A stretch of 64,000 bases of DNA from a virus: positions 48,192 through 112,191 of the IMG/VR virus record IMGVR_UViG_3300017917_003565; one strand, written 5' to 3'. Position numbers and translations under genes: made by a program. The notes below the pieces were generated by a model. That model did not search any database, was not told the DNA's origin, and saw only the letters and a list, made by a program, of their open reading frames with translations. Below, piece after piece: positions 28,039-45,340 of this stretch. Each line of letters opens with the position of its first letter. Position 1 is the stretch's first letter.

Positions 28039-28073
28039 GTAGAAACCTCTCATGGTTTCTACTGATATTTATA
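28039..28073 (-). promoter_or_regulatory. Late promoter TATAAATA followed by a perfect 9-bp hairpin
   Basis: Minus strand TATAAATA at 28073-28066, then GTAGAAACC (28062-28054), a 6-nt loop and GGTTTCTAC (28047-28039). With T4 late spacing the RNA would begin inside the first arm and keep a 7-bp stem at its 5' end. Same layout as the clpS, hsp20 and groES leaders. Confidence 0.65.
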
Positions 28074-28114
28074 TGTTGCACCCGCACATAATAACGAAAC
28101 ATAACGATGGCCGC

Positions 28115-28122
28115 GATAAATA
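28115..28122 (+). promoter_or_regulatory. Late-promoter-like motif GATAAATA
   Basis: 15 nt before the ATG at 28138 with CAAGGAG between. Divergent from the minus-strand late promoter at 28073. Confidence 0.55.
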
Positions 28123-28137
28123 CCACACAAGGAGATC

Positions 28138-28311
28138 ATGATGTTATCATTTCTTAAAAAGTTTTTTGGTACTAAACCTTCGGTAAATCCCTGCGGTGAT
28201 GCACCTTACAAGGTAGAAACTGTGGAAGCTAAACCTGTTGCGCCCAAAAAGTCCCCAGCCAAACCCCGCTCAACCCAGAAACCTCGTAGTTCAAAAACTA
28301 AGAAACAATAA
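28138..28311 (+). CDS. Small basic protein, Lys/Pro-rich tail (57 aa)
   Basis: MMLSFLKKFFGTKPSVN..APYKVETVEAKPV then a Lys, Pro and Ser-rich tail (KKSPAKPRSTQKPRSSKTKK). An N-terminal amphipathic helix and a histone-like basic tail suggest nucleic acid or membrane-surface binding. Similar small FLKxxFG...PYKVE proteins occur in cyanophages. AAGGAG before ATGATG. The end overlaps the convergent membrane-protein gene by 14 nt. Confidence 0.65.
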   Translation: MMLSFLKKFFGTKPSVNPCGDAPYKVETVEAKPVAPKKSPAKPRSTQKPRSSKTKKQ

Positions 28312-28600
28312 AATATCGTATCAGGCCAATACTGTCGATAATGACCAAGAACACAGCATTGGCCAGCAATCCAAAACTCCTGCGAGTCCAACAGGCATAG
28401 GCGCTGCATACACACCCAGTGATAAAAATACTGTAGAGTGGTACCACAGGAATGTGTGGCACAGTGATAGCAAATATGATGGCGGATATCACGCTACAGG
28501 CCCAGGCTGTGACTTCCAAACAAAATCTCAAGCGGTTGGATGCCCAGTCGTGACGTACATAAGTGCAGATGTTTTGCACTACTGTTCCAACAAAATCCAT
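28298..28600 (-). CDS. Membrane protein, three helices (100 aa)
   Basis: Hydrophobic helices at about 28-47, 52-68 and 76-98; ends in a hydrophobic LIRYFIVS. Polar N-terminus TYVRHDWASNRLRF. The stop of the UV endonuclease gene overlaps its ATG (TAATG). Not assigned; PnuC-fragment-like in general appearance. Confidence 0.6.
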   Translation of the reverse strand: MDFVGTVVQNICTYVRHDWASNRLRFCLEVTAWACSVISAIIFAITVPHIPVVPLYSIFITGCVCSAYACWTRRSFGLLANAVFLVIIDSIGLIRYFIVS

Positions 28601-29637
28601 TACATCAGCCCTAGTTCTACCGCACGTTCATAGACCTGCTGGCTGGCAAGATTTTTACCTTTGGCTTCGACCTGAATGTCAAACTCGGAACTAAACGACA
28701 AGGCCCAGTCATTGACCTGTGTGTTCCACATAAAGTCCGAGTGGGCACGCAGTTTTTGTTTTTTTAGACCCTGGTCAAGAAGTGTTGCAAGATCAGGTCT
28801 AGTTCGGGTACAATGATCCACAACAACATCTTCGCGACTAACACTGTAATGCATAGCAGGGCGCACACCACGCCAACTGTCAATAACCCGCTTCGTACGA
28901 TCATCCTGGGCAGTGATATATTCACCGGTGTTGATCCAGTGGTGATGTATATCCAATACAAGAGCAACATGCTCGCCCACAGCAAGAGTAGTGTCAAGAC
29001 CATTTGATATTTCGTCGTTTTCTATAGTTATGAGGTTGCGAGCCTCGGGGCTAAGTTTGCCCAGAGTCTGCAGGAACTTGGTGGCACCGCCCTTGCCTGA
29101 CAAGTGTACATTGATCTTGAATCCAGAATCATGCCATTCGGCGCCATAGCCCATCCAGCGGGCCATGTCTGCATGGTATTCAAACTCTAAGATACTGCGT
29201 TCTACGATGCCGTCATTTTCTGACGCCAGCACACAAAACTGTCCTGGATGAAAACTTAATCGCACATCCAGTCTGCGAGCTGTTTCACCGATGGGTGCAA
29301 AAATCCGTTCCAAATGACGCTGGATGTCGGGTTGTTGCCACCAGTCGATCCATGATGGTTCTGTGTAGCCCTGTAGCATTTCACTACCCAAGCGAACCAT
29401 TCTGCGTTCTGGGGGTAACGTAGCCACACGTTCAATCAGGCGCACAGCAGCCGCGGCATTGTGATTCATGATGTCCCACTGACGCTGTTCAGCTTCATCT
29501 TTGTGTTCGCGTAACCAACGCATTGTAGTTGAACGCCCGTTAAGGTCCCGATCTTTTGCGTTGACTTTCATGCCGCCACATTCTGAGGGGTCATTGAGCC
29601 ATTTGCAGCAGAAGCCAATGCGTTTGAGTGTTGTCAT
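28600..29637 (-). CDS. uvsE: UV DNA damage endonuclease (UvdE/UvsE)
   Basis: 345 residues, a TIM-barrel metal enzyme. Family landmarks: RIGFCCKW at the N-terminus, LSFHPGQFCVLAS, TIENDE, VLDIHHHWI and MHYSVSRE, which supply the His, Glu and Asp metal ligands. It nicks DNA 5' to cyclobutane dimers, 6-4 products and abasic sites, starting an alternative excision repair. Useful for a phage in sunlit water. Own sigma70-like promoter, 23-nt leader. Confidence 0.9.
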   Translation of the reverse strand: MTTLKRIGFCCKWLNDPSECGGMKVNAKDRDLNGRSTTMRWLREHKDEAEQRQWDIMNHNAAAAVRLIERVATLPPERRMVRLGSEMLQGYTEPSWIDWWQQPDIQRHLERIFAPIGETARRLDVRLSFHPGQFCVLASENDGIVERSILEFEYHADMARWMGYGAEWHDSGFKINVHLSGKGGATKFLQTLGKLSPEARNLITIENDEISNGLDTTLAVGEHVALVLDIHHHWINTGEYITAQDDRTKRVIDSWRGVRPAMHYSVSREDVVVDHCTRTRPDLATLLDQGLKKQKLRAHSDFMWNTQVNDWALSFSSEFDIQVEAKGKNLASQQVYERAVELGLM

Positions 29638-29655
29638 AGTCGCGATTGTTGAGTG

Positions 29656-29663
29656 TATAAATA
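29656..29663 (+). promoter_or_regulatory. Late promoter TATAAATA
   Basis: Plus strand, a perfect T4 late motif, about 65 nt before the duplicated gene pair at 29729. It lies in the leader of the divergent UV endonuclease transcript, so early leftward and late rightward transcription overlap here. Confidence 0.6.
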
Positions 29664-29666
29664 GTT

Positions 29667-29695
29667 ATTATAGCATCATTTGATTAAAATATCAA
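29667..29695 (-). promoter_or_regulatory. Sigma70-like promoter TTGATA-N17-TATAAT
   Basis: Minus strand -35 TTGATA at 29695-29690, -10 TATAAT at 29672-29667, spacer 17. +1 near 29660; 23-nt leader to the UV endonuclease gene. Confidence 0.75.
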
Positions 29696-29728
29696 GAGAA
29701 TGCGAACGACTGCAAAAGGAGACCCAAA

Positions 29729-30025
29729 ATGGCAGACACAATCCGAACTATCAGCAGATATTCTTGCCCTCTTATAAACAATCCTAACAACAAGGATGTG
29801 CCCGGAGTACAGGATTGGTTTGATTATATCGGTCCAAAACTGGACCAAATGGTAGCCGAAGGCAAAACTACCATGCGTAACGCCATTCTAGGACCGCAGG
29901 GACCCACTGAGTGGGAATATATCCGCACCTGGAGAGACGAAGCAGCGGCACAGGAGTTCTGTGATTATGCTGATCTCAAACGAGGACATAGATTGATCTC
30001 TCGTACCATTGAACCCATAGTATAA
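29729..30025 (+). CDS. Tandem paralogue 1, small soluble phage protein (98 aa)
   Basis: MADTIRTISRYSCPL...GPKLDQMVAEGKT...GPTEWEYIRTWRDEAAAQEF. Nearly the same as the next gene apart from an insert NNPNNKD after the CPL segment. AAAGGAG precedes the ATG. No known domain; the size and pattern suggest a ferredoxin-like dimer (ABM-like), but this is a guess. Confidence 0.7.
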   Translation: MADTIRTISRYSCPLINNPNNKDVPGVQDWFDYIGPKLDQMVAEGKTTMRNAILGPQGPTEWEYIRTWRDEAAAQEFCDYADLKRGHRLISRTIEPIV

Positions 30026-30033
30026 GGACACCC

Positions 30034-30318
30034 ATGGCCGATACCATAAGAACCATCAGCAGATATTCCTGCCCGTTGATAGATTTGTGTAAACCAGGAG
30101 TACAGGATTGGTATGACTACATTGGACCCAAACTGGACCAAATGGTAGCCGAAGGTAAAACCGAACGACGCAACGCCATACTAGGTGAACAAGGGCCCAC
30201 CGAGTGGGAATATATCCGCACCTGGAGAGACGAAGCAGCAGCTCAAGAATTTTGTGACTTTGCTGATCTCAAACGAGGTCATAGATTGATCTCGCGCAGG
30301 ATCGAACCCATAACCTAG
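30034..30318 (+). CDS. Tandem paralogue 2, small soluble phage protein (94 aa)
   Basis: Copy of the preceding gene, starting 8 nt after its stop; most residues are identical and the N- and C-termini are conserved. It keeps Cys near residue 13 and adds another Cys after the CPL segment. The pair is an in-place duplication, either for dosage or for a heterodimer. The end overlaps the convergent gene by 4 nt. Confidence 0.7.
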   Translation: MADTIRTISRYSCPLIDLCKPGVQDWYDYIGPKLDQMVAEGKTERRNAILGEQGPTEWEYIRTWRDEAAAQEFCDFADLKRGHRLISRRIEPIT

Positions 30319-30875
30319 TCTGTTTTTAACAATGCCAGGACACCCTGCAGGGTGTCTTGGGTAAAGTTTGGTACACCTTCCAACTCTTTCATAGGATCTC
30401 CAAGATGATCCACCAAGACCCATTGTACCTGGGTGTTTTCTGTCATGACTTGTCTGATCAAGGTGCGATAGTTCTGCGCAGCATGTTCCTGTAGACGATC
30501 AGGATTTTTAGCCCGAACTCTCCAGTCAAACCCCAGCAACAACACGATATCACTTTGGCTGCTGGCCAGGTGCATGGCAATGATTTCTTCTTTGTTGTCC
30601 AGATCCAGCACTGTGGTAGCACCATATAGTTTCACAGGCGAAGGTCGATCCAGTGTTTGGAACAATGATTCAGGAATATAAAAGTTACAATGATCCTGGA
30701 ATCGTCGAGCTGTCAACGATTGCGCTCGATCCAAATCATTGCAGATCACATTGTCGGTGCCGCAGGCTCGCCAGGTCTGCCAGCCTCCCCAGAACGACCC
30801 AATGGCTTTCAACTGACTAAGATCAACCATGGGGTCTGGTATGTAATGATTGGCCAACACCCAGCTTATATTCAT
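30315..30875 (-). CDS. Conserved phage protein beside the structural gene (186 aa)
   Basis: Start at MNISWVLANHYIPDP chosen for its ATGA overlap with the structural gene upstream. IGSFWGGWQTWRACGTDNVICND and a C-terminal alpha/beta pattern (DIVLLLGFDWRV) recall a protein regularly found in virion gene clusters of aquatic T4-like phages. Function unknown; an assembly role is plausible. Confidence 0.65.
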   Translation of the reverse strand: MNISWVLANHYIPDPMVDLSQLKAIGSFWGGWQTWRACGTDNVICNDLDRAQSLTARRFQDHCNFYIPESLFQTLDRPSPVKLYGATTVLDLDNKEEIIAMHLASSQSDIVLLLGFDWRVRAKNPDRLQEHAAQNYRTLIRQVMTENTQVQWVLVDHLGDPMKELEGVPNFTQDTLQGVLALLKTD

Positions 30876-32152
30876 TCTGCGCTCTTGAGTGTTTGCCACT
30901 TGAAGGCGCCCAAGCATACCCAGGCAAACACACGATCATTTGCTGGATTGGCGTTAAACACTATGTCTCCACGAGTACCGGACCATCCTGGAACCTGGGC
31001 CGAATGGCTGATACGATGTTGTCCTACCTGCAGTTGTTTGATCGTGGTCAACCCAGTGACAGCAACCTCTATTTGTGGTTCACGGTTCACTCCTATGACC
31101 AGGCTTTGATCTCTGTTGGTACCCATATAGGCCTGGTTGAGTTTGTGTTTACCGATCACTATGCTGACTTCTTCATCCCAGATGCCTAGAGCTTTTTCTG
31201 GAGTGTCGTTGTTGATGCCCACACGCTTGTTTAACACAGTCATGGTGGTGTTGTTAAATCTGGCTTCACCTTGCACACGTAAACTACGGAGTCTGCCCAC
31301 AGATTGCAGATTACTGTCGACCACGGTGTCTGTGAGTCGGTTGCCTTCGATCACCGGATCATCTCCCAGTCGTATCTGTTCAAACTTGATGCCTTGGCTT
31401 TGTATCTGCTCAGTGACTTCCTGTACCAAGCGGCCGTTCCATTCTGCGGTCAACTTGTCCAGAGTCTGCTGGCTAATATGACTAGACAATGCAGACCAGG
31501 AATCGTTGTCGGTGTTAATGCTGCCGGTGACCACGAGATTTTGTACCTGCAGTGATTCCTGTGCCTGTATATTTTTAGCATGTAACACATTTTCTATCAC
31601 CACTGCATCATCCATCACAGTGAGTTCACACTGTCCCGCACGATCTACGATGCCAGAACTGGTAAAGTTTTCTAGTAGTCCTGTGGTGAATCGTTGCATG
31701 TAATCTTCCACATACTGTTTGATCGACGGACCAAGATCTATGTTTCCTAGTCGCGCAAGAGTTTCTTGCGCCACGGCTTGGGTTATCAATCTTTCTACCT
31801 GGGCTTGCCAGGCAGGGTCTTGCCCAAATTGGTCCACAGATGACTGTATTATTTGTTCTACCGCTGAATCCACAGAGTGTTTGATCTTGTTGTGATCCAC
31901 AAACTGTTGTACGCCCGGGATCAACCCGGCTTCAAACATTTCATTTACACTGGTCTTGACTGCTTGTATGATTTCCGGCATGGTCTCGCTGTTGGCAAAC
32001 TTGGCCAGGATTCGATCTTGGGTGTATTGCAAGATCTTTTGTTCTAGAGATTCTATCCATTGATCAGAAGTCAACACGTCCAGTACCTGTTGGTTGACTT
32101 CCGTGGCAATCTGTTTTTGTATCATGTCAGTGATGGCTTGTGTATCAAGCAT
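30872..32152 (-). CDS. Virion structural/fibre protein with helical shaft (426 aa)
   Basis: The first 150 residues are helical (TDMIQKQIATEVNQQVLDVL.., repeated amphipathic helices). Then come beta-repeat elements (NVLHAKNIQAQESLQVQNL, VVTGSINTDNDSW) and a C-terminal module with RVGINNDTPEKALGIWDEE and WSGTRGDIVFNANP, typical of phage fibre tips and chaperone-like ends. Probably a tail or whisker-type fibre. Confidence 0.7.
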   Translation of the reverse strand: MLDTQAITDMIQKQIATEVNQQVLDVLTSDQWIESLEQKILQYTQDRILAKFANSETMPEIIQAVKTSVNEMFEAGLIPGVQQFVDHNKIKHSVDSAVEQIIQSSVDQFGQDPAWQAQVERLITQAVAQETLARLGNIDLGPSIKQYVEDYMQRFTTGLLENFTSSGIVDRAGQCELTVMDDAVVIENVLHAKNIQAQESLQVQNLVVTGSINTDNDSWSALSSHISQQTLDKLTAEWNGRLVQEVTEQIQSQGIKFEQIRLGDDPVIEGNRLTDTVVDSNLQSVGRLRSLRVQGEARFNNTTMTVLNKRVGINNDTPEKALGIWDEEVSIVIGKHKLNQAYMGTNRDQSLVIGVNREPQIEVAVTGLTTIKQLQVGQHRISHSAQVPGWSGTRGDIVFNANPANDRVFAWVCLGAFKWQTLKSAE

Positions 32153-33068
32153 GTTGTCTCCTGGTATCCAAGGTCACACAATGAAATCCACCGCCCAAGG
32201 TGCGGCTGTGACTCAAAGTCAATGGTATAACATCAAAACGGTGTTGCTTCAATCGATCAATGAGTTGTGTCTGCGCCGCATCCATGATCACTGTTTCCGG
32301 ATCCAGTACCAGCATGTTCATGGCTATCCATTTTGACGCATAGGGATATTGATAAAAACTCTGCGGCACTATCATATCATCAGTGACCCAGATCTTTTCC
32401 CAATGATCAAATGCCTTGGGACAGTTGTCGGGCGTTACTCGATTGGCATTGAGCAGGACCAGGCCTTGCCGCAAAGGTACTATGGTCGAATCAATATGTA
32501 CCCCTGAATAAAAGTTACAGAGTTCGATGTTGATGTGAGGGAACTGGGCACATAACCACTCATAGGCTGCACGATTGCCTGACGCAGACTCCAGGAACAA
32601 CCATGTGTTTCCCAGTCTGCACACATTGGCTGCATCTAATATCATCCCCTGATCTCTCGGCATGCGTATCACAGTTCGGGCATCTTCCAATAATCTGCTG
32701 TAGTTTTGGATCTCTTGATCGCGGCAAGGATACATCATGTTGACATCCACTACTACATCACCATGTATCAGCAGTCGATCTCGAGGACAATAGTTGTACA
32801 TGCCTTGAGTCTGTACAAAATCCATGAGACGCGGTCTGTACACTGTGGCACCATAGCGTGCCAGTGTTTCGCATAGGCCGTCTAGCTCTCGATTGGTTTG
32901 ATCTATGATATGCCCGGGAACAGGACCCGATGGAACCGGTGATTCAGTCCAGGTAGTCTTTGAACCTTCGTTAGCAAACACCGGATCAGTGCTGGGCCAG
33001 TTGGCCGCTGTGGCCGATCCTACTATGATGGACTGCAACGGATCCCATTCATTGCGAGTATCAACCAT
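32145..33068 (-). CDS. Amidinotransferase-family enzyme (GATM-like)
   Basis: 307 residues. RNEWDPLQSIIVGS at the N-terminus, GMILDAANVCRLG, the HIDSTIVPL segment (His-Asp) and a C-terminal GGGFHCVTLD with the nucleophilic Cys match the beta/alpha propeller amidinotransferases (glycine amidinotransferase, StrB-type). They move an amidino group from arginine to an amine. With SpeD at 35380 this points to amine or polyamine chemistry. Overlaps both neighbours by 8 nt. Confidence 0.85.
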   Translation of the reverse strand: MVDTRNEWDPLQSIIVGSATAANWPSTDPVFANEGSKTTWTESPVPSGPVPGHIIDQTNRELDGLCETLARYGATVYRPRLMDFVQTQGMYNYCPRDRLLIHGDVVVDVNMMYPCRDQEIQNYSRLLEDARTVIRMPRDQGMILDAANVCRLGNTWLFLESASGNRAAYEWLCAQFPHINIELCNFYSGVHIDSTIVPLRQGLVLLNANRVTPDNCPKAFDHWEKIWVTDDMIVPQSFYQYPYASKWIAMNMLVLDPETVIMDAAQTQLIDRLKQHRFDVIPLTLSHSRTLGGGFHCVTLDTRRQHA

Positions 33069-33600
33069 CTACATGTCCTGTGATCTGTAGAGTATATCTG
33101 GGAGCCAGTCCTAGGTTGGCTGCCATGTGAGGAGTATCGTAGGCCCATTCTACCACAGCACCTGCTCGCCAGTCCACAAAAGCTCGATCTTGGTATTCAG
33201 CATAGTGGCCAGGTTGCCAGTCTTCTAAAAATATCACGGCTCTACGGATGGTATGTTCAAGACCTTGTAGATCAAAAAGTTCAATATACTTTTTATAGAG
33301 ATCACTGTGAGTGGGCAATATGGTGCCGGGCCCCATACGATAATAACTGGTCCCAACATCACGCCACCCTTGGCCTTCGAAGATTTCTATGAATCGATTA
33401 TTCCAGGCAGGTTGAGGACTGCGCATGTCACACATGGCCCCGGTAAAGTTATTGCCGTATCCTTGGTTCAACCAGATTTCCACCTGGTCTGGATCGTTGA
33501 ATGCTTCAGTAATATACTCCAACGATTTGTAAGATTCATCCCAAAAAGGATACAGTTGATACCTGTGTGTTTGGTGTTTTTTAGTAGGTGTAGACTGCAT
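33061..33600 (-). CDS. 2-oxoglutarate/Fe(II) oxygenase-like protein (179 aa)
   Basis: LPTHSDLYKKYIELF carries a His-x-Asp pair; the distal ...EWAYDTPHMAANLGLAPRYTLQITG carries a His and the Arg that binds 2-oxoglutarate, in the order of aspartyl/asparaginyl hydroxylase-like double-stranded beta-helix enzymes. The substrate is unknown; such genes are frequent in aquatic phages. Coupled to the amidinotransferase gene. Confidence 0.7.
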   Translation of the reverse strand: MQSTPTKKHQTHRYQLYPFWDESYKSLEYITEAFNDPDQVEIWLNQGYGNNFTGAMCDMRSPQPAWNNRFIEIFEGQGWRDVGTSYYRMGPGTILPTHSDLYKKYIELFDLQGLEHTIRRAVIFLEDWQPGHYAEYQDRAFVDWRAGAVVEWAYDTPHMAANLGLAPRYTLQITGHVDG

Positions 33601-33601
33601 C

Positions 33602-33609
33602 AATAAATA
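33602..33609 (+). promoter_or_regulatory. Late-type motif AATAAATA, 7 nt before ATG
   Basis: The motif ends 7 nt before the ATG at 33617. With T4 late spacing the +1 would fall about 2 nt before the start codon, giving a leaderless mRNA. Confidence 0.55.
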
Positions 33610-33616
33610 TTTTCCT

Positions 33617-34921
33617 ATGACTGTTCCTTTAGATTTGATGTATCATTACATACACGACGTTGCCTGTAAAATCTATGGAGGTAACACGTTAATTTATCGT
33701 TTCTGGCCACACGGAAGTAAAAATATAACCAATCTGGCTCTCATGGGCAAGCACGATATCCTAACACGAGTGACCAGTCCACAGATCTGGTGCAACGATC
33801 AAGAACCTCTAGATCATGAATATTATCGTATTAATCTGCACAACGAGTTTACCGAAAAGCATCTGCGTTCCATACTGGTATTGAAATCTATTGCACAGTA
33901 TCGTCAGCGTATCAATCTCAACTATGCCTACAATGCTTTTACCAAAAGTATCTTGTTACACAGCGAGCGCAGATCCGCAGAAGTAGAAAAATACATCCGT
34001 GACGGCGAACTGATTCCTGTATACTATTGGAATCATGCTATAGTGGCACTTGATTGGTATCGTTATGCGCAGTACACTACATTTGCCAAACTGCCGCAGA
34101 CCAAGAAGTTTTTGATCTACAATCGAGCCTGGAGCGGTACTAGAGAATATCGCATCAAGTTTGCAGATCTTTTACAACATCATGATCTAGTTAGACAGTG
34201 CCAGACCACGTTCAACTCAGTCGATCCTGAGTCAGGATCGCGCTATCAAGATCATGTGTTCCGAAATCCCCAATGGAAACCTGTGCATCAGTTGGAAGAT
34301 TGTTTTGAATCTAATGCCACACCCAGCACGGCCAGTGCGGACTTTGTGGCCGAGGACTACAATGGCACCGATATTGAAGTGGTATTAGAAACCCTGTTCG
34401 ACGATGGTCGTTTGCACCTCACAGAAAAAAGCCTGCGGCCCATGGCCTGCGGTCAGCCTTTTATATTGGCAGCTCCTCATGGTAGCCTGCAATATCTACG
34501 TGACTATGGATTTCGGACCTTTGATACAGTATGGAACGAAGACTACGACACTATTGAAGATCCTGAGCAAAGGTTACAGGCCATTGTAGATTTAATGTGT
34601 GAAATCACCACCTGGACACCTGCAGTGAGACAGCAAAAGTTGGCCCAGGCCCAGGCTATCGCAGATCACAATCGAGCTTGGTTTTTTGATCCGGTATTTG
34701 GTCGTACAATCGAAAACGAACTAGAAACCAACATGCGAGCTGGCATAGAAGAGCTAAAATCTGCAGGTCTCAATGCCAACTACATCGCACACTGGCCCGT
34801 GGCATTATCATATCCGGAGGTTGCTGCCTGGTATCATGAACTGGGTGTGCCTACGGATCATCATCGTTTCCTTGGGCAGTTAAACAACCGTATCAAAGAA
34901 CTCAAACAAAAGATATCCTAA
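33617..34921 (+). CDS. Putative glycosyltransferase-like phage protein (434 aa)
   Basis: The block HLTEKSLRPMACGQPFILAAPHGSLQYLRDYGFRTFD is a conserved feature of large aquatic-phage proteins. It resembles the nucleotide-sugar-binding part of GT10- or exostosin-like glycosyltransferases (E-K-...-P-x-x-x-G-x-P-x-i). The N-terminal part is less clear. It might glycosylate virion proteins, lipids or DNA. Leaderless late expression predicted. Confidence 0.5.
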   Translation: MTVPLDLMYHYIHDVACKIYGGNTLIYRFWPHGSKNITNLALMGKHDILTRVTSPQIWCNDQEPLDHEYYRINLHNEFTEKHLRSILVLKSIAQYRQRINLNYAYNAFTKSILLHSERRSAEVEKYIRDGELIPVYYWNHAIVALDWYRYAQYTTFAKLPQTKKFLIYNRAWSGTREYRIKFADLLQHHDLVRQCQTTFNSVDPESGSRYQDHVFRNPQWKPVHQLEDCFESNATPSTASADFVAEDYNGTDIEVVLETLFDDGRLHLTEKSLRPMACGQPFILAAPHGSLQYLRDYGFRTFDTVWNEDYDTIEDPEQRLQAIVDLMCEITTWTPAVRQQKLAQAQAIADHNRAWFFDPVFGRTIENELETNMRAGIEELKSAGLNANYIAHWPVALSYPEVAAWYHELGVPTDHHRFLGQLNNRIKELKQKIS

Positions 34922-35312: not shown

Positions 35313-35355
35313 AGGTCTATCTCCTAACCAGCAGTACATTTTTTTCTATCGTTAT

Positions 35356-35371: not shown

Positions 35372-35379
35372 TCTACCTT

Positions 35380-35730: not shown

Positions 35731-36469
35731 GTTTCCGATACGTGTGCCTTACACCACTGCACCCCACATGGTGCGCAACACTGGTGCTATATTTCGTAGA
35801 GATCCCAGACCTCGGTACCTACGCCAGAAAAAACAAGAACTAGAAAAGTACGACACTGACCTCTGGGCCGATATGCCAAAATCTCGCGAGTTGATACAAC
35901 AAGCTACCCGAGAGTTGGGTCTGGTACAAACTTCCAACATCGTGAACTTTGCTCTGCAGATTGAAGAAGATGTAGCCATCATGCATCAAGGGCACCTAGT
36001 GGCTATATGTTTTTGTTTTCCTAGTTCGTGGATTCCGCGAGAACGCATAGGAATGTCATTAACTGATATTCATACACCTGTGGCTGACGGAGATCGATTG
36101 AGAACCATGAGCCAAAGAATAGCCGAAACCATGGCTGATCCCAAATCGGGCAGTTTTCTCAGACATGTGTGGACTGTTGCTACTTCAGGCGAGCTCAGTC
36201 AACATCCTTCCAACAAATCCGATCTTGTACCCAACAGCATTGACGATCTTTGGTTTAGATTAGAAACACAGACCACCATGCCTTTGGGTGATGGAGAGAG
36301 CAGTGTATTTTTTGTTCATGTGGAAACAGAACCGTTGTCTAACAGTTGGTCGCAACCAGACCGTCGTGCCCTGTTAATTGATAGTGTCAACTCAATGACT
36401 GATGCTGTGTTAGAGTATAAAAATCTACACACCATTAAAGAAATTTTCAACAAAAAAAAGACCCCGTAA
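35720..36469 (+). CDS. DUF3445 / heme-dependent oxidative N-demethylase-like protein (249 aa)
   Basis: VAICFCFPSSWIPRERIGMSLTDIHTPV followed by RLRTMSQRIAETM is the core of DUF3445, linked to heme-dependent oxidative N-demethylase alpha subunits. The substrate in phages is unknown. Follows speD in the same transcript with an 11-nt overlap, so a link to amine metabolism is plausible (inference). Its last codons form part of the terminator hairpin on the other strand. Confidence 0.7.
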   Translation: MPIEFPIRVPYTTAPHMVRNTGAIFRRDPRPRYLRQKKQELEKYDTDLWADMPKSRELIQQATRELGLVQTSNIVNFALQIEEDVAIMHQGHLVAICFCFPSSWIPRERIGMSLTDIHTPVADGDRLRTMSQRIAETMADPKSGSFLRHVWTVATSGELSQHPSNKSDLVPNSIDDLWFRLETQTTMPLGDGESSVFFVHVETEPLSNSWSQPDRRALLIDSVNSMTDAVLEYKNLHTIKEIFNKKKTP

Positions 36470-36476
36470 CGGGGCC
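36452..36476 (-). terminator. Strong intrinsic terminator
   Basis: Minus strand GGCCCCG-TTA-CGGGGTC followed by eight T. It ends leftward transcription from the 37-40 kb operon and from the short leader at 36531. Confidence 0.9.
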
Positions 36477-36520
36477 TCAAATGTGTTACGGGGTCGACTC
36501 CTTGTAGTTGTAATGTCGAC
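36452..36520 (-). ncRNA. Candidate small structured RNA
   Basis: A TTAAATAC late motif (36531-36524) is followed at once by GGGTCGAC/GTCGACCC arms (36522-36515 and 36498-36491) with AAGGAG in the loop, then the terminator. There is no ORF. Arm GACCCCGTAAC (36460-36470) can also pair with GTTACGGGGTC (36485-36495), an 11-bp alternative. It would make an RNA of about 65 nt. Not a known family that I recognise. Confidence 0.5.
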
Positions 36521-36523
36521 CCT

Positions 36524-36531
36524 GTATTTAA
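36524..36531 (-). promoter_or_regulatory. Late-promoter-like motif TTAAATAC
   Basis: Directly followed by an 8-bp palindrome, as at groES, hsp20 and clpS, but here no gene follows before the terminator. Confidence 0.5.
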
Positions 36532-36723: not shown

Positions 36724-36885
36724 TCATCTAGATTCAACTCTCCACATAGATTCCCGATGATCTTGTTCAACACCGTTGGTATCTTGTTCATCGTCTTGAT
36801 ATTCTTCCAGATGCTCAAGACTGGAACGATCTTTGCGCAGTTTTACTATGTACTCGGACAAGGTTCTAATGGTGTGCCCTTCCAT
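36724..36885 (-). CDS. Small charged protein (53 aa)
   Basis: MEGHTIRTLSEYIVKLRKDRSSLEHLEEYQDDEQD... is helical then acidic. GAGGAG lies 6 nt before the ATG, and an AATAAATA late motif stands upstream. Last gene of the operon. Unknown. Confidence 0.55.
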   Translation of the reverse strand: MEGHTIRTLSEYIVKLRKDRSSLEHLEEYQDDEQDTNGVEQDHRESMWRVESR

Positions 36886-36905
36886 GATTTCTCCTCTAAC
36901 ACACC

Positions 36906-36913
36906 TATTTATT
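36906..36913 (-). promoter_or_regulatory. Late-promoter-like motif AATAAATA
   Basis: 21 nt before the ATG at 36885, overlapping the last codons of the gene at 36909. Confidence 0.45.
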
Positions 36914-37391
36914 TCCCTCCAGCCAAGGGATTGTCCAACGCCTTTTGTATTTTAACATCAACTTCTTTGCGTACCGCTCTAATGTCTTGCTCGGTCTCTC
37001 GACTGAGTTGTTTGCCATCGCGTTCCACTTGCTCTACCACCTTTTCCAATCTACGGATGTCTGCTTTGAGATCATTCTTGATGTCCTGTGTATATTGAAC
37101 TGACTTCTCTGAGTTCTGCATGGTGATTTCCATCTTTTTGTTCAACTCGCTCAGATCTGGTGCCACATACTCGGCAATCTTTTTCTTCATGCCTTGGTAG
37201 TCCTTGTACACTTCAAAGGCTCCATACAATCCGCCCAAGGTAGAACTTATGATAGTTGCTGCTACCATGAGCTTGGCAGGTGTAAACTCGTAACCACCTA
37301 TGCTGATCACGGTGTCCTTGCTCATGTATTTTTTGGCCGCGGCTTCGAGCTCATCGACCTTGCTGTTTACGTCTTTTATTTCTGTAGCCAT
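36909..37391 (-). CDS. Membrane protein with long coiled coil (160 aa)
   Basis: N-terminal helix, one hydrophobic segment at about 38-58 (KLMVAATIISSTLGGLYGAF), then a long charged coiled coil (70-150) with regular heptads. Similar designs are seen in virion-cluster proteins of aquatic T4-like phages. It begins inside the end of the 45-residue gene (16-nt overlap). Confidence 0.6.
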   Translation of the reverse strand: MATEIKDVNSKVDELEAAAKKYMSKDTVISIGGYEFTPAKLMVAATIISSTLGGLYGAFEVYKDYQGMKKKIAEYVAPDLSELNKKMEITMQNSEKSVQYTQDIKNDLKADIRRLEKVVEQVERDGKQLSRETEQDIRAVRKEVDVKIQKALDNPLAGGK

Positions 37392-37513
37392 TTTAATAAT
37401 CCTTTAATCATGCTGGGTTTACGCTCACGAACTTCTGCATCATGCAGATCCATGTAGCGTTGGATGTATTTTGTGTTGTTAAGAATGTAATCCATTCTTT
37501 GTTGTGTGTTCAT
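37376..37513 (-). CDS. Small protein (45 aa)
   Basis: MNTQQRMDYILNNTKYIQRYMDLHDAEVRERKPSMIKGLLKWLQK. A strong AAGGAG stands 6 nt before the ATG. Basic amphipathic C-terminus. The end overlaps the next gene start by 16 nt. Unknown. Confidence 0.55.
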   Translation of the reverse strand: MNTQQRMDYILNNTKYIQRYMDLHDAEVRERKPSMIKGLLKWLQK

Positions 37514-37532
37514 ATGATTCTCCTTGTTTTGA

Positions 37533-37736
37533 TTATTTTTTATCCAACCACGGATCCTTGCCGCCGGACCTTTTTATCTGCTGTGCCAATAAATCAATCT
37601 GTTGCTGTAGTTCCGTGTTTTTTCTTTCTATCGCACTCATGCGATGTTTGTCTGCATCTTGATCCCATTTGACCCATAAACACACAAAAGCTGATACAAG
37701 GCTTATGGTATAGATAGCAAATATGATACCGTCCAT
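37533..37736 (-). CDS. Single-span membrane protein with coiled coil (67 aa)
   Basis: Transmembrane helix at 4-24, then KHRMSAIERKNTELQQQIDLLAQQIK coiled coil. Resembles small i-spanin-like or division-protein-like anchors in layout only. TAATG junction with the gene upstream. Confidence 0.6.
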   Translation of the reverse strand: MDGIIFAIYTISLVSAFVCLWVKWDQDADKHRMSAIERKNTELQQQIDLLAQQIKRSGGKDPWLDKK

Positions 37737-37900
37737 TATCGTCGCCCTATCATGAGTCTGTTGAGATACTGGTGATATTCCAGTTCATCCTTAAGATCGC
37801 ATATTCGGATGTAACAGTATACGATGCTTACTGAGCACGCCATCCACCATACCATAAACAAGTATTCAGCTAGGGTGTGTCCTAAATACAATTCATTCAT
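37736..37900 (-). CDS. Small membrane protein (54 aa)
   Basis: MNELYLGHTLAEYLFMVWWMACSVSIVYCYIRI then a polar helix DLKDELEYHQYLNRL. AGGAGC precedes the ATG, 8 nt after the stop of the secreted Cys-repeat gene. The start and TAATG coupling support it. Confidence 0.55.
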   Translation of the reverse strand: MNELYLGHTLAEYLFMVWWMACSVSIVYCYIRICDLKDELEYHQYLNRLMIGRR

Positions 37901-37908
37901 GTCTGCTC

Positions 37909-40125
37909 CTATCTATTTTTATATTGTGCATCCACCATCTCTGTGTGCAATCTGTCAGATCCTGTCATGAATCTACGTCCAGCTGGATTGTCTATATTAC
38001 GCTGACCTTTGTAGATCTCAAATGGTCGGTAACCCACGGCATCTGGCAGAACTGCTTTGCCATAGGCGTCAAATCCCGGAGTGAATCCCATGGCTTGGAT
38101 TACTACATTCTGCACAGCCACTTGAGCTTCTATAGTTGCAGCCTCGCCCATCTTGCTGGCAAGATTTTTGCCTTCTTCTACGGCTTTGGTACGTGCGGCT
38201 TCTAATCTGCGTTCGGCCAAGGCTTGACGTGTGGTCTTAGGTTGATCAGTAGAGGATGAACTGGCACTGGTTTTTGGTGCTGATGAATCTTTTGAATCTA
38301 CAGTCTTGGTTTCTTCTTTCTTTTCTTCTTTGGTTGCTACTACTGTGGCAATCACCGGTTGTGGTGCAGGCACCAATGGAACCGTGGCAGTGGTTGCTTG
38401 AGCTGGACTGGCCGAAGTAGCAGTAGCGGTTACTGTTTGATTGACCACCGGGTCTGCTATCACTGGTGGGTTGCTACTTTGATTGGTGGTGGTGGCCACC
38501 ACCACTGTTTCTTGCACTGGAGTAGACACGGTTGGTGTTGATGATCCTATGTTAAGGATATTTTTCTTGGCATAGGCCTCGGCATAGTTGGGACATTGAT
38601 TGCTGTACAACCCATCAAGATTACATTGTTGTGCAAAATATGCCTGGGCATACCCAGTGCATCCTGTGTCATACAGAGGGTTGGCAGTACATTGTTGCAC
38701 ATAATAGGCATCAGCATATCCTGGACATTGACTGTTGTACAAAGGATTCAAACTGCACTGTTGTGAAAAATAGGCCTGAGTATACCCAGGGCAGTTAGGA
38801 GAATACAAAGGATTAGCTGTGCATTGATAAACGAAATATGCGGCGGCATAGCCCGGGCATTGGGTATTATACAGGGCCGAGATGGTGCATTGTTGTGCGA
38901 AGTAAGCCTCGGCATACCCAGGGCAGGCAGGATTAGTCAGAGGATTAGAACAGTCAGTGGCCTGCGTGGAGTTAAGGCTCCAATCGGCAACCGATTTTCC
39001 AGGTATGCCAAAAAACTGATGTGTCTTTTCTCCCAAAGCCAGATTACCGATGGTTCCAATGGTCACTGTCTGCTGTGAATTTATGGAAGTATAGTTAGCT
39101 CCAATGTAGCCAGTGGGTCTCAGTTCTAGATTAAATGTGTTGAGGTTGGCACCATTGCTGATGTCTCCAATGTTTTTCCAGTGATAGCGTATGTGATTGG
39201 CATCTTTGGTGGTGTAGAATTCTGATGTTGGACCGGGATAGAGATCAGTCCAAAATGGTGCTATCAAGTAGTTGATCCTACTGCCAAGGCTGGCAGTATT
39301 TTGACCAAGGTCGGGCCCGCCACAGCAATAGGCCCACCCACCATCATTGGGTTCAATGAGGCTGAGAGGATCTAGAAAACTGACCACACCATTGCTGTGC
39401 ATCCAGGAGTTGGTAAACACCCGGCCATAGAAAGGAAATCCAAATGGCAAAGGCACATGAGCATAAGAATCATCACCAAATGTATAGTAGGTTTTGTAAC
39501 CCGGGCACGATGGCGACGATTGTGGGTTGACCACACAAGGATCTACACTATAGTTTAATCCCACATTGACGTTGCGTATCTGAGGACCGTAGTATCCTCC
39601 CCAGAATTTGTTATCCTGTCCGGAGAAACTGACTTCGAGATTGCCCACTGAAGCCAGGCCATAGGATTGGCTGAAATTCTGTGTGCCACTCTGTGTATAC
39701 CATTGATTGCCTTGCACAGGCATGGAATAGTTATAGGTCTGCAAGGCCGACCCTGTGGGGCTGGTCAGTCGGATCTGTCCAGTGAGTGATCCCTGACTTT
39801 CACCAAAGTTGTAATATTGCCAAGAGTAGTTATAACCACTGATCTGTATGCCTGTGCCACTGAGTGCTTGATTGATGGCTATGGCCTGCGCCACTGTGCC
39901 AGACTGCCAGGAAAAATAAATGGTATTGTTGGAAGAATTATAACCCGGAGGCCCACCTTCTCCTGGAGCACCGCCACCGGTGCCGGTGTAAGGTACCGCA
40001 CCAGACCAGGTATTGTTTATAAGATTGGGTGTGGTAGATGTCTGTGCTCGTACTGGTGCACTGAGCCATACATAAAACAGGCACAGGTACATAACCAGAA
40101 GAAAACGAGCAAACAGTCGCATCAC
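37909..40125 (-). CDS. Secreted Cys-repeat protein with NIDO-like region (738 aa)
   Basis: Signal peptide MMRLFARFLLVMYLCLFYVWLSAPVRA. Residues about 30-200 are Asn, Gly and Tyr-rich beta. At about 225-345 a NIDO-like pattern (SWMHSNGVVSFLDP, IAPFWTDLYPG) appears. Then about six tandem repeats of around 24 residues with consensus C-x-NPLY-x3-CPGYAxAYFxQQ, each with two Cys (disulfide pairs expected). Next is a Thr/Val/Lys low-complexity linker and a helical C-terminal domain ending in RRFMTGSDRLHTEMV. Exported, so it acts in the periplasm or at the surface, perhaps as an adhesin or envelope-lysis factor. Operon with another secreted protein (4-nt overlap). Confidence 0.7.
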   Translation of the reverse strand: MMRLFARFLLVMYLCLFYVWLSAPVRAQTSTTPNLINNTWSGAVPYTGTGGGAPGEGGPPGYNSSNNTIYFSWQSGTVAQAIAINQALSGTGIQISGYNYSWQYYNFGESQGSLTGQIRLTSPTGSALQTYNYSMPVQGNQWYTQSGTQNFSQSYGLASVGNLEVSFSGQDNKFWGGYYGPQIRNVNVGLNYSVDPCVVNPQSSPSCPGYKTYYTFGDDSYAHVPLPFGFPFYGRVFTNSWMHSNGVVSFLDPLSLIEPNDGGWAYCCGGPDLGQNTASLGSRINYLIAPFWTDLYPGPTSEFYTTKDANHIRYHWKNIGDISNGANLNTFNLELRPTGYIGANYTSINSQQTVTIGTIGNLALGEKTHQFFGIPGKSVADWSLNSTQATDCSNPLTNPACPGYAEAYFAQQCTISALYNTQCPGYAAAYFVYQCTANPLYSPNCPGYTQAYFSQQCSLNPLYNSQCPGYADAYYVQQCTANPLYDTGCTGYAQAYFAQQCNLDGLYSNQCPNYAEAYAKKNILNIGSSTPTVSTPVQETVVVATTTNQSSNPPVIADPVVNQTVTATATSASPAQATTATVPLVPAPQPVIATVVATKEEKKEETKTVDSKDSSAPKTSASSSSTDQPKTTRQALAERRLEAARTKAVEEGKNLASKMGEAATIEAQVAVQNVVIQAMGFTPGFDAYGKAVLPDAVGYRPFEIYKGQRNIDNPAGRRFMTGSDRLHTEMVDAQYKNR

Positions 40126-40658
40126 TGTTTCTCAGTAGGCCGATCAGGAATAACCGCTGGTGATTTAGTAGCGTAATGCCCTACATTCTCTTTTTTGGCC
40201 GAATCTAACACACCACGGCGTTCCCATTCTGTGCGAGCATCGGTGCCGATTTTGCCCTCCACTGGGCAGGGCGTGCCAGCCGCCATCATGGCAGTGAATA
40301 TACGATCATCTTGACAAAGCGTGGCCACAGCAGCCACTTTCATGCCCATGTCGTAGAGATTTTTACTGAGTTTGATGCGCTCGCAGTTCATGTCTCGCAT
40401 GGTTCCTCCCACGGAGATACCCAAGATCTGTGTTTGAACTGCACCTGATGCTGCCACAGCACACACATCATTGTTGATGGTGGTCACGGCAGGTGCCACA
40501 GCCGTGGGCGGCGGCGACTTGACCGTGGTTTCGCTGGTGTTGTGAGTGGTGCTACGCGAGGTTGAATCAGTGACGATTGGTTGTGCTTGTACTGGCAGTA
40601 CAAGCAAGGAAGCGGATATCACGGCCCATCCGCCAAGGCTTGCAAGTTTTTTGAACAT
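40122..40658 (-). CDS. Secreted phage protein, conserved in aquatic phages (178 aa)
   Basis: Signal peptide MFKKLASLGGWAVISASLLVLPVQA. After a Thr/Ser/Pro-rich linker the conserved part CERIKLSKNLYDMGMKVAAVATLCQDDRIFTAMMAAGTPCPVEGKIG has four Cys. This core recurs in aquatic T4-like phages next to Cys-repeat proteins, so the two probably work together outside the cytoplasm. Function unknown. Confidence 0.7.
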   Translation of the reverse strand: MFKKLASLGGWAVISASLLVLPVQAQPIVTDSTSRSTTHNTSETTVKSPPPTAVAPAVTTINNDVCAVAASGAVQTQILGISVGGTMRDMNCERIKLSKNLYDMGMKVAAVATLCQDDRIFTAMMAAGTPCPVEGKIGTDARTEWERRGVLDSAKKENVGHYATKSPAVIPDRPTEKQ

Positions 40659-40693
40659 TTTTCATTGGATTGGTTTTGCCAATCTTCTCCACG

Positions 40694-40727
40694 TGTTCCT
40701 CTTAGTGGGAACATCGCATGTATTTAA
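40694..40727 (-). promoter_or_regulatory. Late motif TTAAATAC plus hairpin leader of the secreted-protein operon
   Basis: TTAAATAC at 40727-40720, then TGTTCC (40713-40708), an 8-nt loop and GGAACA (40699-40694). Stem of 6 bp, weaker than at clpS or hsp20 but the same order. Confidence 0.5.
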
Positions 40728-40756
40728 CTCAAAATGTCCTGCAAAAAATGCTGGTA

Positions 40757-41311
40757 TTAAATGGTTATAGGCAACCACAGCCATATGGCCTGGCTCATGA
40801 GTAACATGGCCAAAGAACCTACCGCGATACTGGCCTTGTACATCTTGGTATTCACTGCCAATATACTGGCAGTCAACAACACGATGGCTATTTGAAACAA
40901 ACTGCCAGCATAGGTATACCAGGGGCTGCGATTTTTAGCTTCAGAGCGCACAGCTTCATGAGCTCGAGCTTTGGCCATGAGTTCTTGTTTGCCCTCGCCA
41001 GATTTAGGATCTGACTCATAGCGATCAATCTTGGCCTGTAGATCTGAAGCCTTGCGCTTGTCACCGGCACGCACAGCATCTTCTTGTGCCATTTCGGCCA
41101 AAGTCTGCTTGATTGATTTGGCTTGATAGAATGCCCAGGTGTTGTTAGCGTCTATGGTGTTGTTTAATATTTTGCTTGAATTAGCACCACCCATAAGTGT
41201 GTTGATAGCCAACATGGCAGCCAGTACTGTGATTACCCAACCAGCTTTATCTTTGATCTGTGCTTCACGTTCACTGCGGCTCAGTGGTTTGACTTCTTTG
41301 ACTTCGCTCAT
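40757..41311 (-). CDS. DUF4337-like membrane protein (184 aa)
   Basis: Helix at about 24-42, then NNTIDANNTWAFYQAKSIKQTLAE, a coiled-coil middle and two C-terminal membrane helices (about 133-155 and 160-180). The ANNTWAFYQAKSIKQ signature and topology fit DUF4337, an uncharacterised inner-membrane family. The ribosome-binding site AGGAG is inside the stem of the leader hairpin. Confidence 0.65.
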   Translation of the reverse strand: MSEVKEVKPLSRSEREAQIKDKAGWVITVLAAMLAINTLMGGANSSKILNNTIDANNTWAFYQAKSIKQTLAEMAQEDAVRAGDKRKASDLQAKIDRYESDPKSGEGKQELMAKARAHEAVRSEAKNRSPWYTYAGSLFQIAIVLLTASILAVNTKMYKASIAVGSLAMLLMSQAIWLWLPITI

Positions 41312-41317
41312 TGTAGG

Positions 41318-41348
41318 CTCCTATTGTTTTAATAATAGGAGTATTTAG
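41318..41348 (-). promoter_or_regulatory. Late motif CTAAATAC plus hairpin that buries the ribosome-binding site
   Basis: CTAAATAC at 41348-41341, then arms CTCCTATT (41341-41334) and AATAGGAG (41325-41318), 8 bp. The AGGAG that serves the DUF4337-like gene (6 nt before ATG) is in the second arm. Full-length RNA would hide it. An RNA that starts 6 nt after the motif would keep only about 3 bp and leave it open. Confidence 0.5.
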
Positions 41349-41351
41349 CGT

Positions 41352-41699
41352 TTATTTTCGTATGACCGGGGACCAGTCGCTGGGAAGATCCTGTGTTTTC
41401 AATCGTTGGATTCGTGCACCAAACTCCGCATAAAATGAATCTAGTTCATTGCCCCATTTGCCTGTGAGATGTCCAATGGCCTGTTCACAGAAGTCCCAGT
41501 TTTTTTCTGCATAGTTTTTGATCAACTTGGCATGTAGTTCTTTGTTGGCATCCAGATTGGTCAACTCAGCAATGGGCACGTTTTCTACCACGCAGTAAGC
41601 GGTGTGTTTGTTGCCATCCGCCAACAGCAGAGTGTCTAACTCTAAAATGGTGTACTTGTCTTGATCTTCGGGCAGTGCTTCTTTGAATATTATGTTCAT
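41352..41699 (-). CDS. Small phage protein, unknown (115 aa)
   Basis: MNIIFKEALPEDQDKYTILELDTLLLADG.. alpha/beta soluble protein with an acidic N-terminus and helical C-terminus. CAGAGGTTTATACC precedes the ATG (AGAGG as ribosome-binding site). No domain recognised. Confidence 0.6.
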   Translation of the reverse strand: MNIIFKEALPEDQDKYTILELDTLLLADGNKHTAYCVVENVPIAELTNLDANKELHAKLIKNYAEKNWDFCEQAIGHLTGKWGNELDSFYAEFGARIQRLKTQDLPSDWSPVIRK

Positions 41700-41711
41700 G
41701 GTATAAACCTC

Positions 41712-41719
41712 TGTAAATA
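41712..41719 (+). promoter_or_regulatory. Late-type motif TGTAAATA, 6 nt before ATG
   Basis: Ends 6 nt before the start at 41726; T4 late spacing puts +1 at 41725, so a leaderless mRNA is predicted. Confidence 0.5.
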
Positions 41720-41725
41720 GTTATC

Positions 41726-42520
41726 ATGCAGTTAGCCTTTGATTTAATTTCTGACTTACATGTTGAAACCTGGCCCGAAGATTTTGATTGGTCGTCTCAG
41801 GCTACCAGTGCTTATTGTGTAGTAGCTGGTGATGTATGCCGAGACCGAGATCTCTTGGTTCGTGCCCTTACCAATCTGGGACAGAGTTATCCTGGTGGAG
41901 TGTTCTACATCGACGGCAATGATGAGCATCGTAACCATTTGGAAGACCTCGGTAACAGTTATCTTGACCTAGATCATTTGGTCAGACCCATAGACAACTT
42001 GGTGTACCTACAGGACAATGTGGTGATCATCAATGGTGTAGCGTTCCTTGGAGCCAACGGTTGGTGGAACTTTGAGTTTGGCAGTGATATTGACGCTGAA
42101 CAAACACAGATGTGGTATCAACACAAACTAGGATTATCGGATCAGGCAATCGCAAGCATTGTTAGTTGCGCCAACGGTGACGCAGCTTATTTGATCAACA
42201 GCGTGAAGAAACTGCAAACACACAAAGAAGTTCATGCCATAGTCATGATCAGTCACACTGTGCCATCACCAGAGTTGGTGGCTCATGATCCTGAGTTGGC
42301 TGATACCTATAGATTCAACTGTGTTGGCAACAATCTGCTGCTACATGCCTTGGCAGCAGATTCAGAAAAAAAGATCAATACCTGGTGCTTTGGACACTAT
42401 CACAGCGCAGTGGATCAACTACACAATGGTATACGCTGGGTCAACAACTGCCGAGGCCGTGGGGATTCTCCTTGGCGGCAACACACTTATTTTCCCAAAA
42501 GAATCGAGATCAACTACTAG
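41726..42520 (+). CDS. Calcineurin-like metallophosphoesterase, second copy (264 aa)
   Basis: FDLISDLHVETWP (Asp and His ligands), VVAGDVCRD, IDGNDEHRN (the usual GNHE is GNDE here), MISHTVPS and CFGHYHSAVD. The His-to-Asp change in the GNHE block may alter activity. About the size of the copy at 10613 but divergent. Single plus-strand gene, convergent with clpS (4-nt overlap). Substrate unknown. Confidence 0.8.
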   Translation: MQLAFDLISDLHVETWPEDFDWSSQATSAYCVVAGDVCRDRDLLVRALTNLGQSYPGGVFYIDGNDEHRNHLEDLGNSYLDLDHLVRPIDNLVYLQDNVVIINGVAFLGANGWWNFEFGSDIDAEQTQMWYQHKLGLSDQAIASIVSCANGDAAYLINSVKKLQTHKEVHAIVMISHTVPSPELVAHDPELADTYRFNCVGNNLLLHALAADSEKKINTWCFGHYHSAVDQLHNGIRWVNNCRGRGDSPWRQHTYFPKRIEINY

Positions 42521-42825
42521 GAGATTTCAGGTTCTAGTTTAACCTGGAGAGGATAGTTGTTGGTACGAGCCTGTACCGTGACTTCAATGCCTTTTTGTTC
42601 GGCGATTTCATAGGGCAACACGGCTACCACTGCAGATCCTTCTTCGTGTATGTCATAGGTGATTTTGACTGCGGTCTGTTCGGTATAATCAAAGCTGGAT
42701 ACCAGCGTTTCTATCACAAACTCCATGGGGGTGGCATTGTCGTTGAGATATATGACCTTGAACATGGGCGGTTCTGCTAGACCATGATTGGTTTTAACTT
42801 TTGTAGCGGTATCTGCCTGAGACAT
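42517..42825 (-). CDS. clpS: ClpS, N-end-rule adaptor of Clp protease
   Basis: 102 residues, the standard length. FKVIYLNDNATPMEFVIETLVSSF matches the N-degron pocket (NDxxTPMEFV), and IHEEGSAVVAVLPYEIAEQK contains the conserved His and the rest of the pocket. ClpS delivers proteins with N-terminal Leu, Phe, Tyr or Trp to ClpA (or ClpC). No phage ClpA is in the window, so it may redirect the host ClpAP. Own late motif with a strong 5' hairpin. Confidence 0.92.
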   Translation of the reverse strand: MSQADTATKVKTNHGLAEPPMFKVIYLNDNATPMEFVIETLVSSFDYTEQTAVKITYDIHEEGSAVVAVLPYEIAEQKGIEVTVQARTNNYPLQVKLEPEIS

Positions 42826-42842
42826 AAAGAGTCCTTGATTGT

Positions 42843-42875
42843 AGTGGAGAGCAACATGCCCTCCACTGTATTTAC
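42843..42875 (-). promoter_or_regulatory. clpS leader: late motif plus 11-bp hairpin
   Basis: Minus strand GTAAATAC at 42875-42868, then AGTGGAGGGCA (42867-42857), a 3-nt loop TGT and TGCTCTCCACT (42853-42843). 11 bp with one G-U. CAAGGA lies between hairpin and ATG. Confidence 0.7.

Positions 42876-43415: not shown

Positions 43416-45340
<1,925 letters not shown>

Follow-up and report, generated by a model that had tools for sequence, protein, structure and literature searches.

A proposed two-key switch, late promoter and ROSE-like RNA thermometer, at phage chaperone genes

The DNA considered here is a stretch of 64,000 nucleotides (nt) from IMG/VR virus record IMGVR_UViG_3300017917_003565 (positions 48,192 to 112,191), hereafter the window: 64 kb of a partial record of 112 kb, in which several TAAATA motifs are directly followed by palindromes. 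We read the strongest of these promoter-palindrome sites, at the small heat-shock gene hsp20 and at the leader of groES-groEL, as two-key switches of phage chaperone genes, each combining a late promoter with a ROSE-like RNA thermometer; we give this reading a probability of about 0.8. The position of the elements, their architecture, their covariation and their conservation across distant T4-like phages are direct observations, as is the presence of a late sigma factor in relatives.

The first key would be a T4-type late promoter, with a helix, stem I, at the predicted 5' end of the mRNA. The second would be another helix, UUGCU against AAGGAG, shutting the ribosome-binding site at low temperature. 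Warming should open this second helix, and the outcome would be that hsp20 and the groES leader are made late, in hot cells only. Operons that begin with dnaK have the same element there; one genome has it at groES, in another place, and it also follows a host-type promoter at a phasin-like gene. Transcription start, melting of the Shine-Dalgarno (SD) helix and heat induction are predictions made from sequence.

The leaders of hsp20 and groES

Both sites belong to a minus-strand cassette that is kept in relatives: p519 - clpX-like - p73 - (groES-groEL or dnaK in some) - hsp20 - clpS - p115. Its chaperone genes and their leaders are as follows.

42885..43325, minus strand: hsp20, small heat-shock protein (phrog_432, E 4.4e-37)
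43392..43399, minus strand: T4-type late promoter TATAAATA of hsp20 (TAAATA upstream of hsp20 in 65/68 relatives)
43358..43391, minus strand: ROSE-like stem I of hsp20, GTAGTGTAGAC-G(bulge)-CCGA-TGG-TCGG-GTCTACACTAC (covariation in A1; R1; Rfam ROSE_3)
43332..43348, minus strand: anti-SD TTGCT (43348-43344) opposite SD AAGGAG (43337-43332) of hsp20 (TTGC/TCGC..GGAG in 65/68 relatives)
43416..45041, minus strand: groEL (phrog_5725, E 1.5e-177)
45053..45340, minus strand: groES (translation; blastp relatives)
45508..45515, minus strand: late promoter TATAAATA of the groES-groEL leader
45446..45507, minus strand: ROSE-like element, stem 45480-45502, TTGCT 45472-45468, SD AAGGAGG 45461-45455 (R1 47.3 bits)
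45425..45448, minus strand: leader open reading frame (ORF) of seven codons, MSMQYIF, 3' of the ROSE-like element and ~85 nt 5' of groES

Both TAAATA and UYGC..GGAG are found in 64 of the 68 hsp20 leaders of relatives. The exceptions include L024 and L063, in which dnaK lies immediately upstream of hsp20 and has the element (dnaK bears it where it precedes hsp20), and L007, with a ROSE-like leader behind dnaK, without TAAATA. Aligned over 52 hsp20 leaders, stem I has 97.2% of its cells paired and double changes in 7 of its 11 pairs, one of which switches between G-C (26) and C-G (21); none of 500 shuffles was as good, and slid controls were paired at 30-49%. UUGCU and AAGGAG, together the signature of ROSE (PMC11342760), are located 3' of stem I in these leaders. 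A covariance model, R1, built from the leaders of jumbo-phage relatives with cultured phages left out, and containing TAAATA and AUG columns, scores 79.7 bits at hsp20 (43323-43397). Rfam ROSE_3 is the top Rfam match at this same site (43388-43320, minus strand), at 25.1 bits, full length and below gathering, and it aligns over its full length (1-69) with L062 (29.8 bits), with L044's record (36.7 bits, E 3.8e-7 per genome) and with the phage Melnitz (34.1 bits, E 0.0025). Genome searches with RF02523 give lower bounds, the window's own hsp20 site having been missed on first pass. Among bacterial hsp20 relatives of the GTDB set (Sphingomonas, Zobellella and a metagenome-assembled genome of Aeromonadales, 43-45% identity), those scanned gave no ROSE_3 match and a single weak ROSE_2 match, at the hsp20 relative of Zobellella; this set gave no clue to the phage host.

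At the groES leader the R1 match has an E value of 1.1e-6 in 1.47 Mb, and the element ends on the ATG of the leader ORF. A like arrangement is found at groES in L062, L014, L016, L017 and L019, and short leader ORFs (7-14 codons) also lie between element and groES in L062, L014 and G021. The first-pass annotation of this DNA held that the palindromes have unrelated sequences throughout, which is wrong: the sites at 43399 and 45515, both preceding heat-shock genes, have GTAGACGCC...GGTCTAC and a downstream ACTTGCTTA in common. Upstream of groES in L017, L019, L035, L062 and L070 we also see good sigma70-like promoters (TTGACA-N17-TATAAT-like), an extra promoter of host type.

That these are late promoters is suggested by several observations. 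The T4-type late promoter box TATAAATA occurs 5 times against 1.3 expected; TAAATA stands upstream of p519 at 77 of 80 loci and of p73 at all 58; and a gp55-type late sigma (phrog_234, E ~1e-24) is encoded by all five relatives of 320-349 kb, including L002's record, among the closest, and by none of 14 control genomes. In T4 the late box covers -13 to -6 (PMC2988020); by this geometry +1 would fall ~5 nt after TAAATA, and the conserved G of UGUAG, which opens stem I, sits at this predicted start.

Other phages, other genes and the weight of the case

The window itself has no DNA-level match to cultured phages. The hsp20 leaders of such phages are recovered by R1: Melnitz (55.7 bits, E 6e-10), AG-345-L05 (39.0), S-SM1 (38.7), Syn30 (36.1), ACG-2014d (34.3) and S-RIM8 (33.1). 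In the whole 141-kb genome of Pelagibacter phage Mosig the R1 match is hsp20. Over 1.47 Mb in five related records, every one of the 11 gene-assignable matches lies before a gene for hsp20, groES or a phasin-like protein, a count that leaves aside two weak matches (E 0.7 and 2.6). A further match is at groES in L076's record. By inspection, U(U/C)GCU lies opposite the SD in all sampled cyanophages, and ROSE parts can be recognized in two other jumbo phages, PA5oct and Phosso, where R1 is weak (18.6 and 18.4 bits, E ~0.5). In PA5oct, we may add, hsp20 and clpS adjoin, and in Phosso they stand near each other (L125, L128).

The phasin-like gene extends the list of genes concerned.

26478..26552, minus strand: weak ROSE-like element upstream of the phasin-like gene 26480-26214 (R1 22.8 bits, E 0.82)

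Comparable R1 sites occur at the phasin-like genes of ~17 jumbo-phage relatives (E 1e-6 to 5e-3). The protein (26214-26552, minus strand; L242-L257, L259) has ~90 residues and matches Phasin_2 at E ~0.002, below cut-off; its leader also has a palindrome of the TGTTGCATTGCAACA type, and a sigma70-like promoter in relatives. Because such genes use sigma70-like boxes, and because the leaders of S-RSM4, ACG-2014f and C48C1 possess ROSE parts with no TAAATA, we consider promoter and thermometer to be separate modules.

A number of points weigh against the two-key switch. Phage matches all stay below the ROSE_3 gathering score (43 bits; best 36.7 bits), and for this reason we file the element as ROSE-like and not as a ROSE_3 member; the 69.2 bits reached by 'Pseudomonas phage Y7' belong to an unverified record, possibly host DNA. 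Since R1 includes TAAATA and AUG columns, its score in other phages comes partly from promoter and start. Nearest-neighbour folding (ViennaRNA) gave no clear temperature-dependent opening of the SD, a result we take as uninformative, not contrary, because the model lacks the non-standard pairs of ROSE. At groES, the element in the window precedes the 7-codon leader ORF instead of groES itself, so that thermal gating may possibly act on leader translation and on groES only indirectly, and groES of L017, L035, L062 and L070 has a sigma70-like promoter closer to the gene. Finally, no gp55 match was found in the window's own record, which is partial.

We lean somewhat towards a wider proposal, of a viral heat-shock regulon common to T4-like phages whose hosts are very different bacteria, in which a gp55-type late promoter and a ROSE-like thermometer act as a double control. 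It would comprise hsp20, joined in jumbo phages by groES, dnaK and the phasin-like gene, and virion production would then call for additional chaperones only if the cell is warm or under heat stress.

Compared with the ROSE elements of bacterial small heat-shock genes (Rfam ROSE_3, RF02523; ROSE_2, RF01832), the phage elements are alike in stem I (GAUGCC..GGGUC with its bulged G), in UUGCU/UCGCU opposite the SD, in the distance to AUG, in their place before hsp20-type genes and in their full-length ROSE_3 alignments. They differ in following a T4-type late promoter closely enough for stem I to fall on the predicted 5' end of the mRNA, in their sub-gathering scores, and in sitting also on dnaK, on the groES leader ORF and on the phasin-like gene. 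Very few phages are known to carry an RNA thermometer. Those named in a recent account are lambda cIII, SPbeta blyA (fourU) and Caudoviricetes sigma70 (fourU) (PMC11182007, 2024); they too are temperature-sensing 5' untranslated regions in phage genomes, but none is described there as ROSE, chaperone-linked or tied to a late promoter. We found no paper joining cyanophage, hsp20 and thermometer, in a literature search whose coverage was thin for subscription papers. The novelty thus likely lies in the presence of a ROSE-like device in phages and in its coupling to late promoters, the device itself being known. Its occurrence at hsp20 in most sampled phages – freshwater jumbo phages, marine cyanophages, a Pelagibacter phage – suggests a reason for a phage to carry a small heat-shock protein, namely the shielding of virion assembly during warming. 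Cultured phages are at hand for testing the temperature control of viral genes, a matter that bears on phage activity in warming waters.

Motif-plus-hairpin sites and competing explanations

All seven TAAATA motifs that the first-pass annotation had listed with inverted repeats (28073, 36531, 40727, 41348, 42875, 43399 and 45515) are present on the minus strand; in our coordinates the first T falls at 28071, 36530, 40726, 41347, 42874, 43397 and 45513. The hairpin starts 0-7 nt 3' of the motif at every one of them, with energies, in the same order, of -11.4, -12.7, -5.9, -8.0, -16.9, -15.8 and -7.8 kcal/mol, the weakest being that of 40726 (6 bp). The two sites quoted as counter-examples, 12843 and 28115, indeed have no real hairpin (0 and -1.0).

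That AT-rich intergenic DNA beside TAAATA would form such hairpins unaided is, for the set as a whole, refuted and barely credible. For the shuffled control that the earlier annotation had called for, we shuffled the 52 nt downstream of TAAATA in 200 dinucleotide-preserving rounds, counting hairpins that start 0-7 nt after the motif. Seven of the 33 TAAATA sites of the window have hairpins at or below -7 kcal/mol, against a shuffled mean of 0.57 (max 3), and four reach -10 kcal/mol, against 0.14; in the whole 112-kb record the count is 9 of 57 against 0.98 (max 5), and a genome-background control gives 9 of 57 at or below -7.5 against 2.7 expected. Of another 20 AT-rich hexamers, one alone gives a similar picture: ATAAAT, whose letters overlap TATAAATA. 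In relatives, sampled as 80 viral contigs encoding relatives of the 519-residue gene at 46982-48541, the starts of hairpins crowd into offsets 0-5, each with 44-78 sites, whereas other offsets usually have fewer than 15; this sharp peak is mostly due to two orthologous sites, upstream of hsp20 and of clpS. Covariation, which the earlier annotation had proposed as a check, is strong at these two, amounts to a single change at 40726, and is absent or contrary at 28071 and 41347. Chance retains some ground at individual sites: a few of the wider record stay within its level, and the 41347 hairpin is not conserved in L002 or L058.

The pattern being real does not make it one class of late promoters, as had been assumed. 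At least five different devices adjoin TAAATA, and the full TATAAATA is the upstream motif at only 3 of the 7 sites. We reject a single class of promoter hairpins because the p519 and p73 promoters have no recurring hairpin among relatives (their copies in the window, at 48554 and 45821, have no stable one), because the devices differ, and because ROSE-like elements also stand behind sigma70-like promoters. A motif-plus-hairpin pattern can thus conceal several unrelated devices. Of the two functions suggested at the outset, translation control by a structured RNA 5' end has good support at 43399 and 45515, from their ROSE architecture; it is plausible at 41348, given the geometry of T4 gene e, and at 40727, given the split ribosome-binding site. 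Separate operators fit 28073 and none of the others. As a general account, DNA operators of separate regulators are indeed improbable. Look-alikes of the 28071 site retain the repeat AGTAGAAACCA, with the pairing disrupted in L017, L022 and L166, and have it again upstream of their promoter beside TTGCGTTGCAACA; the hsp20 and clpS stems, on the contrary, vary freely with compensation, and the asymmetric hsp20 bulge is unlike a protein-bound dyad. Compensating changes and bulge likewise rule against CIRCE or another operator at hsp20 and clpS. Terminators were discarded too: no U run follows the ROSE-like or clpS stems, and only 36531 leads into one, ~50 nt on.

The clpS hairpin (42875) is where other explanations carry most weight.

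42517..42825, minus strand: clpS, Clp protease adaptor (PF02617, E 8.1e-25)
42843..42874, minus strand: late promoter TAAATA (42874-42869) and perfect 11-bp palindrome AGTGGAGGGCA-tgt-TGCTCTCCACT (42867-42843) of clpS

In ~60 relatives TAAATA is directly followed there by a near-perfect stem of 7-11 bp with compensatory changes; among 55 distinct sequences pairing holds at offsets 3-8 in 55, at offset 1 in 49 and at offset 0 in 34. The SD is free, 13-30 nt separating stem and AUG, and we take as false positives the 17 clpS leaders in which a loose UYGC..GG regular expression matched within the hairpin. This is an RNA-type covarying stem, distinct from the ROSE-like elements, and it probably gives the late mRNA a structured 5' terminus. 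Were all the hairpins merely 5'-terminal stem-loops, of free sequence, that shield late mRNAs from decay, the bulged G, the CC..GG inner stem, UUGCU and SD kept at hsp20, groES and dnaK would be needless. Protection is a leading reading for clpS alone, where we hold it at somewhat less than an even chance: offsets 2-8 are paired in 54-55 of the 55 sequences with 3-5 pair types each, the stem (-12 to -20 kcal/mol) leaves the SD outside and is followed by no U run, and with +1 predicted at offset 5, ~6 bp of stem would remain at the 5' terminus. Offsets 1-4, however, covary, though by T4 geometry the late promoter would leave them untranscribed. The outer five pairs precede +1 by T4 geometry; therefore transcription may begin elsewhere, or else the palindrome may matter in read-through RNA or in DNA as well. 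The palindrome might accordingly act in hsp20 read-through RNA (or in DNA), its full 11-bp stem being of importance ahead of late transcription and the late promoter removing the outer arm as in T4 gene e, where the 5' arm also directly follows TAAATA (PMC3014915). The outer pairs (offsets 0-3), Watson-Crick in 189 of 220 cases against at most 169 in shuffles, speak for this tentative reading; they are nevertheless under less constraint than the inner ones, and SD and AUG lie beyond the stem, unmasked. We rate protection and read-through control at clpS about equal.

The remaining sites and minor observations

Four sites of the original seven are left.

41318..41347, minus strand: TAAATA, then at once CTCCTATT..AATAGGAG, predicted to mask the SD AGGAG of a DUF4337 gene (T4 gene e geometry)
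40659..40726, minus strand: TAAATA, hairpin TGTTCC..GGAACA (40713-40694), SD GGAG, hairpin GATTGGcaaaaCCAATC (40684-40668) between SD and AUG
36450..36530, minus strand: probable late small RNA with TAAATA, hairpin GGGTCGAC..GTCGACCC exposing ACTACAAGGA, terminator hairpin, T8
28039..28071, minus strand: TAAATA and GTAGAAACC..GGTTTCTAC (sequence, not pairing, kept in look-alikes)

In T4 genes e, soc, 49 and I-TevI the SD is masked in early RNA and released by a late promoter (PMC3014915). The layout at 41347 matches that of gene e in the T4 sequence itself: the 5' arm is promoter-proximal, directly after TAAATA, the SD lies inside the 3' arm, and late RNA would lose part of the pairing arm. 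A mask of the T4-lysozyme kind, hiding the SD only in read-through RNA, is therefore plausible. The gene differs, and the hairpin is kept in neither of the two relatives with the DUF4337 gene.

Likewise, 40726 plausibly combines a hairpin with a split ribosome-binding site as in T4 genes 25 and 38 (PMC3014915), the hairpin at 40684-40668 cutting the ~28-nt spacing from SD to AUG to ~11. It differs from these in its gene (phrog_20531) and in the second hairpin at the promoter. L001 and L002 retain the region; its first hairpin shows a single double change, from G-C to A-T, and the SD-AUG hairpin is invariant.

The 36530 element precedes no gene, and 36450..36530 contains no ORF; a homologue lies at L001:18040-18121 (79% over 82 nt). 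It is probably a late small RNA gene ending in a terminator. Its loop ACTACAAGGA may resemble a CsrA site, a hunch of ours, the word being equally an ordinary SD-like one. As for 28071, its repeat is a probable, if putative, protein-binding site, judging by the conserved sequence.

Other late motifs of the sample show further arrangements. At G000:6302(-), G010:287152, G016:3474(-) and G008:179681, TAAATA is followed by a hairpin holding the ATG of a large MNxHELDSY protein; this ATG comes 5-8 nt after TAAATA, so that a late mRNA might have little or no leader. At G000:21231, G002:14445 and G010:262943(-), differing hairpins follow TAAATA upstream of the gene of one xSRNRAxKAQ protein. The window also encodes a membrane protein of the Bax1-I family (49340-50023, minus strand; PF01027, E 1.7e-54) and a fatty-acid desaturase (26620-27336, minus strand; PF00487).

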